A stretch of 43,318 nt of DNA, taken from positions 1 through 43,318 of IMG/VR virus record IMGVR_UViG_3300046694_000210; one strand, written 5' to 3'. Of this stretch, positions 30,681-33,479 are shown piece by piece (the first letter of the stretch is position 1; each line of letters opens with the position of its first letter). The position numbers were made by a program, and so were the translations under genes. Under the pieces are notes generated by a model. That model was not told the origin of the DNA. It saw nothing but the letters and a program-made list of their open reading frames with translations, and made no database searches. This DNA comes from a virus.

Positions 30681-30821
30681 AGCAATGTGAATGTGCTTCG
30701 ACATCTCTGTGTGGGCTCCGTGAACAAGGGCAATTTTGCACAGGAGATCGTCAAGGTGCTGGCAAACGAAAACACTGGCTTGTCGAACAACGACAAGGCC
30801 AAACCAAACAGGAAGAAGGGC

Positions 30822-31151
30822 ATGAGTGACGTATGTATGGCCCAGGGCCTCTTGAAGGACGCTTTTCCGTCACGGCGGTACGGCAAAGTCGAAAGTGCTT
30901 TCTACGAGGCCCACAAGTTCATCAGCCGTCGCGTCCGTAAGCAATTCACGCTTCGGCGTGTCAGGTCGATCTGGGAGGGAACAGCTCGCCGGATCGATAG
31001 TGAAGAGATGGAAGCCCTTAAGGCCGCGCTTATCGAGGAGCACCTACGTGAACAAAGAGAACTCCGTACCCGTCTGGCTTCGCTGGACGAAAAGATTGCC
31101 GCGTTCGACGCGCGCATGGCTGGCGAAACACTGGCGGAAGGTCGCCGGTAA
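30822..31151 (+). CDS. Hypothetical helical protein
   Basis: A 109-residue protein. ATG 30822 is chosen for GGAAGAAGGGC. The upstream part of the frame covers hairpin DNA. A basic N-terminal half (AFYEAHKFISRRVRKQFTLR, RVRSIWEGTARR) and an acidic coiled-coil C-terminus (HLREQRELRTRLASLDEKIA). It resembles alphaproteobacterial phage proteins with a basic IWEG/IWHG motif, possibly DNA-binding. Confidence 0.65.
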   Translation: MSDVCMAQGLLKDAFPSRRYGKVESAFYEAHKFISRRVRKQFTLRRVRSIWEGTARRIDSEEMEALKAALIEEHLREQRELRTRLASLDEKIAAFDARMAGETLAEGRR

Positions 31152-31206
31152 GCGGATCACCTGGGCCGACTGGATTCTAGGAGAGGAAAAGGACGGCGAG
31201 GAATGA
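31048..31206 (+). CDS. Small protein overlapping its upstream neighbour
   Basis: A 52-residue frame from GTG 31048 behind a very good GAGGAG. It overlaps the previous gene by 104 bases in another frame and reaches the methyltransferase start (ATGA). Basic and Trp-rich (RAWLAKHWRKVAGKRITWAD), ending acidic. It explains the otherwise empty bases 31152-31202. Moderate confidence only. Confidence 0.5.
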   Translation: MNKENSVPVWLRWTKRLPRSTRAWLAKHWRKVAGKRITWADWILGEEKDGEE

Positions 31207-32459
31207 CGAAACTAAAGGTGCTCGATCTTTTCGCAGGGATAGCCGGAATGTCACTCGGTCTTCACCGGACCGGCGGCTTTGAGACTGTGCGCTTCTGCGA
31301 GATCAAGCCGCATGCCCGCGCCGTCATTGAGAAGAACTTCGGCCAGGTGCCGATCGACGAAGACGTAACCACCATGGAATTCACGGAAGGTGAAGCGGAT
31401 GTTATCACGGCCGGCTTCCCATGCCAGGATCTTAGTTTCGCCGGTAGTGGTGCCGGACTTGCCGGAGCCCGTTCGGGACTCTACCGGGAAGTCATTCGAG
31501 CCGTTCGCGTGGTACGACCCCTCAGGGCCGTGCTGGAGAACGTGGCAGCGCTGCTTAGTCGAGGGCTGGGAACCGTTCTCGGAGACTTGGCCGAGATCGG
31601 GTATGACGCGGAATGGCATTGCATACCGGCGAGCGCCGTTGGTGCCCCTCACAGACGAGACCGCGTATGGATTGTTGCCCACCCCAGAGGCAAGCAACAC
31701 AAAGGCCGTAGCGCTCCGCTCAGCGGGTCGCTCGCCGCGCAACTTCTTGCAGCGGATACCAACCCCCAGGGCGAACGATGCGATGAAGCGTGGAGCCTTC
31801 GACGAGACGAACAAGCGGAACGGCTTGCCAGCGTTTGCGAAGAAATGGCCTACGCCGACGACAAGGGACTGGAAATCCTCATCGATGGGGACGCAGGGCA
31901 ACAGCCGGCCGCTCTCGGAAGTCGCCGGCAATGGGCCGCTGAACCCGACGTGGGTCGAATGGCTCATGGGATTTCCCAAAAATTGGACGGAGCTTTAGAT
32001 GCAGAAGAATACCATGCGCAAGCTGGCACAGCGGTTGAACCCCATCATGACAGCATGCCAAGAGTGTGGCGCGACGGGGAAACTGCAGAGGCATCACCCG
32101 GACTACTCGAAGCCGGATCAAGTCGAAATCCTTTGCATCCCATGCCATGTGAAGGCGGACCAGCGGGACGGGCATCGGCACGTGAAGCAGATGAGAGCGT
32201 GCAAGGTGTGCGGCACGATGTTTCTTCCCAGTCACAGCAAGAAGAGCAGCACATGCAGCTCGGCATGTCTTTCGACCGTTGGCCGCATGAACGCGATGAA
32301 GCGCTGGGGATCTGGGACAGAGAACCAGACGTCCCGAGAGTAGCGCACGGCGTCAAGCAACGTGTCGACAGACTTGCCGAATTGGGCAACGCGGTCATCC
32401 CGCAAATCCCGCAAATGATCGGCCACGCCATCCTCGAAGCAGAGAGGACAGCAGCATGA
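31203..32459 (+). CDS. DNA cytosine-5 methyltransferase
   Basis: A 418-residue protein. Motif I DLFAGIAG (8-15), motif IV GFPCQDLSFAG with catalytic Cys 74, ENV (112-114), and motif VIII RRDRVWIV (151-158) form a complete catalytic half. After a long unusual target-recognition region, motif X follows as RLAELGNAVIPQIPQMIGHA (390-409). A motif-X-like approach sequence appears twice, EPDVGRMAHG near 245 and EPDVPRVAHG near 375. Two further genes lie in the +1 frame inside it. It methylates cytosine, probably shielding phage DNA from host restriction. Coupled by ATGA. Confidence 0.85.
   Translation: MTKLKVLDLFAGIAGMSLGLHRTGGFETVRFCEIKPHARAVIEKNFGQVPIDEDVTTMEFTEGEADVITAGFPCQDLSFAGSGAGLAGARSGLYREVIRAVRVVRPLRAVLENVAALLSRGLGTVLGDLAEIGYDAEWHCIPASAVGAPHRRDRVWIVAHPRGKQHKGRSAPLSGSLAAQLLAADTNPQGERCDEAWSLRRDEQAERLASVCEEMAYADDKGLEILIDGDAGQQPAALGSRRQWAAEPDVGRMAHGISQKLDGALDAEEYHAQAGTAVEPHHDSMPRVWRDGETAEASPGLLEAGSSRNPLHPMPCEGGPAGRASAREADESVQGVRHDVSSQSQQEEQHMQLGMSFDRWPHERDEALGIWDREPDVPRVAHGVKQRVDRLAELGNAVIPQIPQMIGHAILEAERTAA
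31399..31998 (+). CDS. Methyltransferase-associated protein nested in the +1 frame
   Basis: A 199-residue frame inside the methyltransferase gene, from ATG 31399 with GGAAGG eight bases ahead (GTG 31390 is an alternative). The sequence is recognisable as the Trp/Pro-rich phage family usually found as separate genes beside C5 methyltransferases: EPFSETWPRSGMTRNGIAYR, YGLLPTPEASNTKAVALR, LNPTWVEWLMGFPKNWTEL. No function is known for it. The same DNA codes real methyltransferase motifs IV-VIII in the other frame, so both products appear to be selected. The stop is followed at once by the next nested ATG. Confidence 0.6.
   Translation: MLSRPASHARILVSPVVVPDLPEPVRDSTGKSFEPFAWYDPSGPCWRTWQRCLVEGWEPFSETWPRSGMTRNGIAYRRAPLVPLTDETAYGLLPTPEASNTKAVALRSAGRSPRNFLQRIPTPRANDAMKRGAFDETNKRNGLPAFAKKWPTPTTRDWKSSSMGTQGNSRPLSEVAGNGPLNPTWVEWLMGFPKNWTEL
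31999..32343 (+). CDS. HNH/zinc-finger protein nested in the +1 frame
   Basis: A 114-residue frame directly after the previous stop, with GGAG six bases ahead of the ATG. It carries CQECGATGKLQRHHPDYSKP and LCIPCHVKADQRDG, an HNH-type zinc site with the His pair and the final Cys-x2-Cys-His. A second finger follows (CKVCGTMFLPSHSKKSSTC). It lies wholly within the methyltransferase frame, in the target-recognition region. A homing-type nuclease that entered the methyltransferase without breaking its frame is one explanation. Confidence 0.65.
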   Translation: MQKNTMRKLAQRLNPIMTACQECGATGKLQRHHPDYSKPDQVEILCIPCHVKADQRDGHRHVKQMRACKVCGTMFLPSHSKKSSTCSSACLSTVGRMNAMKRWGSGTENQTSRE

Positions 32460-32722: not shown

Positions 32723-33090
32723 TGGTCGCCATCTCACGCCAGGAAGCCCAAGCCCTGCTCACCAAGCCCAAGCGGTCGAAATACAACGCCACGAAGACGA
32801 TGGTCGACGGCGTGCTGTTCGATAGCAAGCGCGAGGCTGCCTATTACTCGGAACTCAAGATCCGCGAGAAGGCCGGCGAAGTGACTGGCGTCGAGATGCA
32901 GAGGCCGTTTGCACTGCTCGGGCTCAACGGCGCGCTGATGGCAACTTTCAGGGCTGACTTCTGCTTCTGGGATAACACCGCCGGCCGCTTCCGCTGCATC
33001 GACGTCAAAGGCTTCGACACCCCGGTTGGAAAGCTCAAGCGCAAGATGATGAAGGGCCTGCTCGGCATTGATGTGGAGATCGTGAAATGA
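32722..33090 (+). CDS. DUF1064 nuclease-like protein
   Basis: A 122-residue protein with the DUF1064 pattern: KYNATKTMVDGVLFDSKREA, then GEVTGVEMQRPFALLG, the ADFCFWD strand and CIDVKGFDT. These supply the Glu, Asp and Lys of a PD-(D/E)xK core. Such phage proteins are thought to be Holliday-junction or branch nucleases. Overlaps the neighbours by 1 and 4 bases. Confidence 0.8.
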   Translation: MVAISRQEAQALLTKPKRSKYNATKTMVDGVLFDSKREAAYYSELKIREKAGEVTGVEMQRPFALLGLNGALMATFRADFCFWDNTAGRFRCIDVKGFDTPVGKLKRKMMKGLLGIDVEIVK

Positions 33091-33479
33091 CTTGCTACAT
33101 ATATGTGATTTCGGTTGAAAATCCCAAAGGCGAATTGTCATCCCCAAGCAAAGTGGGGATCTCGGATAATCCTGAAAAGCGATTGAAGGCTCTCCAAACG
33201 GGCCATTTTGCAAAGCTTGGGATAGCTTGCTACTTCGCTGTCCCAGAGAAACGCATTGCCCGCGATCTGGAAGACGCTTTCCACAAGGTGAATTCCGACA
33301 GGCGCCTGGCGGGTGAATGGTTCGATATGCCCGCGATAGAGGCGGTCTCGTTGATGTGCGCAAATCTTCGGGCGTCTCTCGAATCCCATACCGGTGATGA
33401 TGAAAGCTTTGATGACGCCGCCCAAGCGAGCGGGCTTCTGGCTGTTGAGAAAATGCTTTTGAGAGGGGCCGTTCAATGA
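33087..33479 (+). CDS. GIY-YIG family protein (T5orf172 type)
   Basis: A 130-residue protein. CYIYVISVENPKG opens the fold, KVGISDNPEKRLKALQTGHF is the second conserved block, and ERIARDLEDAFH-like helix residues follow (AVPEKRIARDLEDAFHKVNS). GEWFDM closes the domain. This is the meiotically-upregulated/T5orf172 branch of GIY-YIG nucleases. ATGA-coupled on both sides. Target unknown. Confidence 0.8.
   Translation: MTCYIYVISVENPKGELSSPSKVGISDNPEKRLKALQTGHFAKLGIACYFAVPEKRIARDLEDAFHKVNSDRRLAGEWFDMPAIEAVSLMCANLRASLESHTGDDESFDDAAQASGLLAVEKMLLRGAVQ

Follow-up and report, generated by a model that had tools for sequence, protein, structure and literature searches.

The beta subunit of the methyltransferase M.EcoHK31I is encoded within the alpha gene in another reading frame, and the enzyme forms part of a restriction–modification system. 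As set out in a review (PMC3404938), M.EcoHK31I (YGGCCR; Lee et al. 1995) works as two polypeptides: the large subunit carries motifs I–VIII and X and the small one motif IX only, the recognition domain being placed in the large subunit. The same review describes M.AquI as a split C5 enzyme of two chains, the small chain bearing motifs IX and X (PMC3404938). A different kind of nesting was reported by Arsenault et al. in 2025 (PMC11855218): an HNH gene is hidden in another frame of the phage methylase ShiLan gp65 without stops in the host frame, its spread is patchy and homing-like, and the insert begins with a stretch similar to the sequence 3' of the insertion site. The gp65 sequence identifies the host domain as an amino-methylase (DPPYGLEFMGKDWD) and places an HNH of a different type from those described below in the +2 (third) frame. 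In the mitochondrial atp6/ORF360 locus of Allomyces, a homing gene is inserted near the end of its host gene and brings a foreign copy of the C-terminus that makes the host gene whole again; the nuclease gene there does not overlap the host frame.

The locus described here stacks both nestings in one gene. It lies in a virus record of 43,318 bp, the whole stretch of DNA that was analysed (the window), where the gene for the catalytic chain of a C5-cytosine methyltransferase (alpha, 31203–32459) accommodates two ORFs in its +1 frame. Related loci are numbered with the prefix L. The features are the following:

31203..32459, + strand: alpha, catalytic subunit of a C5-cytosine methyltransferase, 418 codons, with motifs I–VIII and X and without motif IX
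31384..31392, + strand: candidate ribosome-binding sequence of beta, GGAAGGTGA, before 31399
31399..31998, + strand: beta, in the +1 frame of alpha, a Trp/Pro-rich subunit with motif IX at its end (LNPTWVEWLMGFPKNWTEL)
31941..31976, + strand: copy 1 of the dual-coded segment, beginning GAACCCGACGTGGG; beta reads the motif IX core NPTWVEWLMGF and alpha reads EPDVGRMAHGIS
31989..31992, + strand: candidate ribosome-binding sequence of the HNH ORF, GGAG, six bases 5' of 31999, within the beta codons W-T-E
31999..32343, + strand: HNH-like ORF in the +1 frame, treble-clef and zinc ribbon, with a TAG-ATG junction with beta
32322..32357, + strand: copy 2 of the dual-coded segment, beginning GAACCAGACGTCCC; alpha reads EPDVPRVAHGVK and the +1 frame reads NQTSRE-stop
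32385..32408, + strand: alpha motif X, LGNAVIPQ in translation, in a model with a confident helix at residues 401–417

The split is the same as in M.EcoHK31I, to which the locus is likened by motif layout: motif X resides in alpha and motif IX in a nested small subunit. The window harbours an HNH gene inside, which M.EcoHK31I lacks. The M.AquI-like form, with motifs IX and X on beta, is seen in the relatives L002, L003 and L153, whereas the beta of the window has motif IX only. With ShiLan the locus shares an HNH that lies out of frame within a phage methylase whose own frame stays open; the window has a C5 host and an HNH in the +1 (second) frame after a nested beta, and its relatives bring in two HNH families, whereas ShiLan has an amino-methylase and the +2 frame. 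Unlike the Allomyces nuclease gene, the HNH ORF overlaps its host frame.

That two ORFs are nested in the methyltransferase +1 frame is beyond reasonable doubt: translation confirms the frame of 418 codons, its motifs and the ORFs at 31399–31998 and 31999–32343 as an earlier note on this DNA had given them. Beta may start at ATG 31399 or alternatively at GTG 31390, and the ATG of the HNH ORF directly abuts the TAG of beta (31998/31999). One gene thus specifies three products through an alpha–beta overlap followed by an alpha–HNH overlap; the triple coding over about 950 bases that had been claimed is incorrect, as two frames at most are used at any base, and the doubly coded part amounts to about 945 bp. 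Each ORF had also been credited with a well-placed Shine-Dalgarno sequence: candidates are present, but the signals are modest. The same GGAG precedes the HNH ORF in L057, and AGGGGAG/AGGAG stand upstream of a GTG in L183/L187; in the window GGAG overlaps the conserved W-T-E codons of beta, so that on its own it is weak evidence. Two neighbours flank the locus: an upstream ORF (30687–31151) matches phrog_26665 (4e-38), a family of unknown function, and just downstream (33087–33479) a MUG113/T5orf172 (GIY-YIG-like) ORF adds another gene of endonuclease type to the neighbourhood of the methyltransferase.

Alpha displays all the C5-cytosine methyltransferase motifs expected of its catalytic part: I (DLFAGIAG), IV (GFPCQDLS, with PCQ), VI (ENV), VIII (GAPHRRDRVWIV) and X (LGNAVIPQ). 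It matches phrog_363 (1.7e-70) and, over residues 4–166 only, Pfam PF00145 (3.5e-37). An alignment of 60 alpha sequences runs from motifs I–VIII through a variable stretch to W..EPDVGRVAxGVPxRVDRLKxLGNAVVPQ with motif X; motif IX is absent from this alignment, and the alpha chain of the window has neither motif IX nor a target-recognition region. An AlphaFold2 model has an HhaI-like fold, confident at residues 1–160 and 390–418 (pLDDT exceeds 90 across much of the catalytic domain and is 94 at the end that bears motif X), and predicts disorder for residues 165–388 (mostly pLDDT below 50). The lack of motif IX, which the earlier note did not mention, is the key to the identity of beta.

Beta carries the conserved motif IX that alpha lacks (LNPTWVEWLMGFP), and in an alignment of relatives its C-terminal 19 residues are nearly invariant (LNPTWVEWLMGFPxxWT). 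The coincidence across frames of NPTWVEWLMGF and EPDVGRMAHG, noticed earlier, is real and conserved. The assignment of this ORF to the Trp/Pro-rich family found beside methyltransferases is borne out by a match to phrog_1008 'DNA methyltransferase' (1.2e-26), but the family is not simply 'associated', as it bears motif IX. A solved-structure search with beta and the HNH ORF found no credible match, and beta modelled alone gives a poor prediction (pLDDT 61, pTM 0.26). Taken together with alpha, beta is very probably one half of a two-subunit enzyme. From its sequence beta would also supply target recognition; the placing of the M.EcoHK31I recognition domain in the large subunit by the review counts against this assignment, the alpha of the window being predicted to be disordered there.

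The arrangement is widespread. In all 166 phage loci encoding both chains, 80 of which came from an alpha query that spans part of the overlap, beta lies in the +1 frame of alpha, and it is fully nested in 160; plasmid searches yielded four beta relatives only. Annotation has captured the gene unevenly. The record of Paenibacillus phage Shelly annotates beta as 'g55 internal gene', but a large number of other records list alpha alone; beta is missed in this way in an Acinetobacter phage, Leptospira and Paenibacillus plasmids and E. coli prophages. A search of E. coli genomes found prophage relatives; the M.EcoHK31I system was not among them. In the record of Komagataeibacter phage phiKX1 (L208) the beta-frame ORF is labelled hypothetical, and alpha and a complete HNH are unannotated.

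Selection on the second frame is visible in the first. In near pairs among 136 non-redundant alphas, the share of synonymous codons that differ is 0.563 ahead of the overlap (codons 0–62), 0.511 over the variable N-terminus of beta (codons 62–98) and 0.316 over its conserved part (codons 98–165), where third-position variability drops from 0.576 to 0.302. When synonymous codons were shuffled with alpha residues fixed, the +1 frame stayed open across beta in 1 of 2000 shuffles. At loci of 44–50% GC the open +1 runs far exceed the shuffled mean, the longest shuffles coming near the observed length in three of four. The absence of +1 stops over beta in 133 loci follows by construction, the region having been cut from the beta ORF, and has no evidential use; the alpha-frame stop counts over the HNH given below are not of this kind. 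Neither frequent stops nor a lack of constraint, either of which the earlier note had named as refuting its proposal, was found in the +1 frame of homologues. A GC content of about 60%, together with Pfam and NCBIfam searches in which beta found no match, would suit the notion that the +1 ORFs are non-expressed shadows kept open by the codon bias of a GC-rich gene. This notion is hardly credible in view of the synonymous constraint in alpha, of loci at 36–50% GC, of recognizable motif IX and HNH motifs and of the pattern of changes in the two copies described below. On these sequence patterns both nested ORFs are almost certainly real coding sequence, the true proof lying in their conservation at other loci.

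Relatives in which the frames are joined suggest how the overlap arose. Motifs IX and X share a frame in the alpha of a Candidatus Megaera plasmid (L205; LNPDWVEWLMGYPISW...LQSLGNAVVPLI / LNPDWVEWLMGYPISW...RLQSLGNAVVPLIPEFLG), in ShiLan gp70 (RLAPAFSEWMMGWPAGWV...LRIIGNGVVPQQ) and in the second chain of Mycobacterium phage Ulysses (L003), which identifies the C-terminal end of beta as motif IX. The C-terminal half of beta would thus be the DNA-recognition and motif IX part of the methyltransferase itself, still in its original frame, and the reading of alpha there would be newer. The N-terminal half, which is read over motifs IV–VIII (with SETWPRSGMTRNG opposite motifs VI–VIII), fits overprinting of methyltransferase DNA. 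The earlier proposal that the whole family arose by such overprinting may therefore hold for one half of beta but not for the other, and overprinting would have run both ways. Small indels exchange the frames in some relatives, so one-chain and two-chain forms interconvert. In L194 and L195 one ORF combines the motif X frame with a Trp/Pro-rich frame resembling beta, motifs I–VIII occupy another frame, and a type-2 HNH is nested. Such frame swaps would be compatible with alpha and beta being joined as one chain by programmed ribosomal frameshifting instead of forming two subunits; this is highly unlikely, as beta has its own start and extends far upstream over motifs IV–VIII, and M.EcoHK31I works as two polypeptides.

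The second nested ORF was described earlier as an HNH-type zinc protein, and this description is upheld: it matches the phrog_2340 endonuclease (3.8e-8), has relatives nested at the same place, retains the His-His and Cys pairs and is under selection in its own frame. Six copies of this type, here called type 1, are known, with an HNH-like fold followed by a zinc ribbon. They are separate ORFs in the window, L057, L183 and L187, and in L012 and L025 they continue the beta chain as an in-frame fusion (..NWTEVDMPKKNTLRK..). C20xxC23, H32H33 and C46xxC49H50 are invariant in four relatives, the C-terminal His included. At the position of the central Asn of the HNH motif the six copies have Q, A, I, L or D, and this lack of conservation makes catalytic and homing activity doubtful for type 1. 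A scan of genome contigs with the HNH profile gave one match, which is unrelated, and of the last 60-locus matches to the pattern CGNCAYCAY 2 of 15 were new, real HNH loci, the pattern matching mostly by chance.

At all six loci the alpha frame is open through the HNH and motif X follows. The HNH therefore sits between motif IX (in beta) and motif X (in alpha): the claim that it had entered without breaking the host frame stands, but the site lies after the target-recognition region and not in it. Given alpha, identity in the HNH frame is above the alpha-only null in every type-1 pair (P<0.002). Given the HNH, identity in the alpha frame is as expected for the group to which the window belongs (P 0.11–0.49), and in that group alpha-frame stops over the HNH number none against 2.6–4.2 expected (P 0.004–0.07); synonymous shuffles with HNH residues fixed leave the alpha frame open in 2.5%. 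As alpha residues there are only as conserved as the HNH predicts, this part of alpha may be a mere spacer or may be slowly failing; in the window it looks like a tether that needs only to stay open. For L183/L187 and the type-2 group, conservation extends to the alpha residues opposite the HNH (P≤0.007). At L183 (6160–8238) the alpha-frame ORF continues uninterrupted into the ATPase-like gene downstream of it (GPGKAGKTTAAL).

A second family, type 2, has the reverse order: a zinc ribbon precedes a canonical HNH with the motif KRFNGRLED, full HNH motifs and the central Asn. It shows weak local similarity to the ShiLan HNH (E 2e-4), which has no similarity to type 1 among the matches listed. 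In 17 of 20 viral contigs with KRFNGRLED the HNH is nested and the host frame is open. No methyltransferase was found at L215, one of the three un-nested exceptions (L215, L226, L228); L226 is the L198 contig, where the HNH is fused to an additional motif X copy. On that contig (IMGVR 3300036760_000297) HNH and second motif X (ALRMLGNAVVPQQ) come just after the intact motif IX–X end of a methyltransferase. Host-frame stops number 0 against 93 expected in 25 nested type-2 loci, and 9, 2 and 4 in the three un-nested copies. Type-2 HNH genes lie behind beta in L208 (phiKX1) and in a monomeric methyltransferase without beta in Staphylococcus phage CUB-EPI_14 (L207, 36% GC); plasmid searches found no type-2 relatives. 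Motif X is in the frame of beta in L216–L221 and L229–L230, so the insertion phase varies. L219 and L220 use three frames, for motifs I–VIII, for the recognition part with motif X and for the HNH, whose C-terminus passes into a further copy resembling motif IX (EWLMGWPLGWTDLN, EWLMGWPIGHTDLS).

The joint between motifs IX and X holds the clearest trace of what happened. HNH-free loci have a single dual-coded segment, GAACCCGACGTGGGTCGAGTGGCTCATGGGGTTCCC (consensus of 91 loci), read by alpha as EPDVGRVAHGVP and by beta as NPTWVEWLMGF. In the window, L012, L025 and L057 two copies of it flank the HNH. Copy 1 differs from the consensus by 3, 1, 2 and 7 changes, respectively, all at alpha first positions; these 13 changes alter no beta residue and 13 alpha residues. 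Copy 2 differs by 14, 9, 11 and 16 changes (50 in total), of which 9, 8, 8 and 10 (35 in total) fall on third positions of alpha codons; over the four loci 8 alpha residues are altered and the beta reading is destroyed. Each copy is conserved for one protein alone, which testifies directly to selection on both readings wherever a single stretch is shared. On the Paenibacillus polymyxa plasmid pAP1 (L203, 1504–2994) the motif is duplicated without an HNH between the copies: the +1 frame reads LNPTWVECLMGFPLDWTSIDE and, about 70 codons further on, LNPAWVECLMGFPLGWTNISGLQD.

The spread of the HNH does not follow that of its host. On a quick alpha tree with many weak branches, the 11 carriers are dispersed and call for 8 changes. 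L183 and L187 are 59% identical in alpha and 76% in HNH, L025 and L057 81% and 55%, and close alpha pairs differ in HNH presence (L057 and L110, 86%; L025 and L184, 85%). Scattered carriers, discordant identities and such pairs fit horizontal gain, and on these comparisons the HNH is quite probably an inserted cassette; that it is of the homing type in function has about an even chance. The in-frame fusion with beta seen in L012 and L025, the loss of the central Asn with zinc ligands retained and the constant position next to motif IX would also be expected of an accessory DNA-binding module, recruited to the C-terminus of beta to extend or steer recognition, that is a separate protein in some phages and part of beta in others. 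Set against the patchy spread incongruent with alpha, the flanking duplication and the similar behaviour of the canonical-HNH family in the monomeric methyltransferase of CUB-EPI_14, this appears unlikely, if not implausible. Adjacency to a C5 methyltransferase and the complete HNH motifs of type-2 copies recall a compact restriction–modification pair, the nuclease being matched to the specificity of the enclosing enzyme; this is very improbable, since type 1 is without the central Asn, HNH presence does not track the methyltransferase lineage, most relatives are without an HNH and 114 amino acids is small for a restriction enzyme.

The preferred reading, an inserted HNH cassette, can be put as follows. 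The locus would be a phage two-subunit C5-cytosine methyltransferase of the M.EcoHK31I type, into which a small zinc gene of the HNH kind has intruded. Alpha would provide the AdoMet-binding and catalytic domain (motifs I–VIII) and, on a long tether, a motif X helix packing back onto that domain. Beta, made from an internal +1 start on the same mRNA, would bring the DNA-recognition part and motif IX, the heterodimer presumably being the active enzyme. Translation of the HNH ORF is probably coupled to that of beta at TAG-ATG. The cassette, most likely a homing-type endonuclease or a derivative, would have entered between motifs IX and X along with the second copy of the joint, a nearly invariant stretch that would have served it as landing site; as the insertion phase leaves alpha open, the host enzyme keeps motif X. 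Two-frame coding under selection, the split of the motifs, the duplication and the patchy spread are direct results of the computation, and we assign the whole model, a two-subunit enzyme of the M.EcoHK31I type plus HNH invasion, a probability of about 0.78. A wider generalization is tentative and slightly less likely to be right than wrong: there may be a class of 'frame-transparent' mobile HNH cassettes that enter C5-methyltransferase genes without splicing, keep the host frame open and, in type 2, its reading conserved as protein, bring a copy of the IX/X joint and land where dual coding makes the site nearly invariant; in the window, one would have arrived behind a nested subunit gene to give three products in two frames.

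The principle of the hidden HNH is already known from ShiLan and the nested-subunit architecture separately from M.EcoHK31I. The present loci add hosts of the C5 class, an HNH in the +1 frame that is paired with beta and at times fused to it, and the separated duplicate. In a search of openly accessible papers no description of nested beta combined with HNH was found; as far as could be found, both the stacking of the two nestings in one gene and the duplicated joint with each copy now serving one protein are new.

Beta subunits inside C5-methyltransferase genes seem to be very common in phages and often overlooked, so a codon-altered alpha clone would probably look inactive. The HNH insertions widen the 'hidden HNH' idea of 2025 from one actinophage methylase family to the C5-methyltransferases of several host groups, which include Staphylococcus and Komagataeibacter phages and many uncultured phages. 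A frame-overlapping HNH is a third way, beside introns and inteins, to occupy a working gene, and the duplicated segment constitutes a natural experiment: two proteins bound to one stretch of DNA and freed by its duplication.
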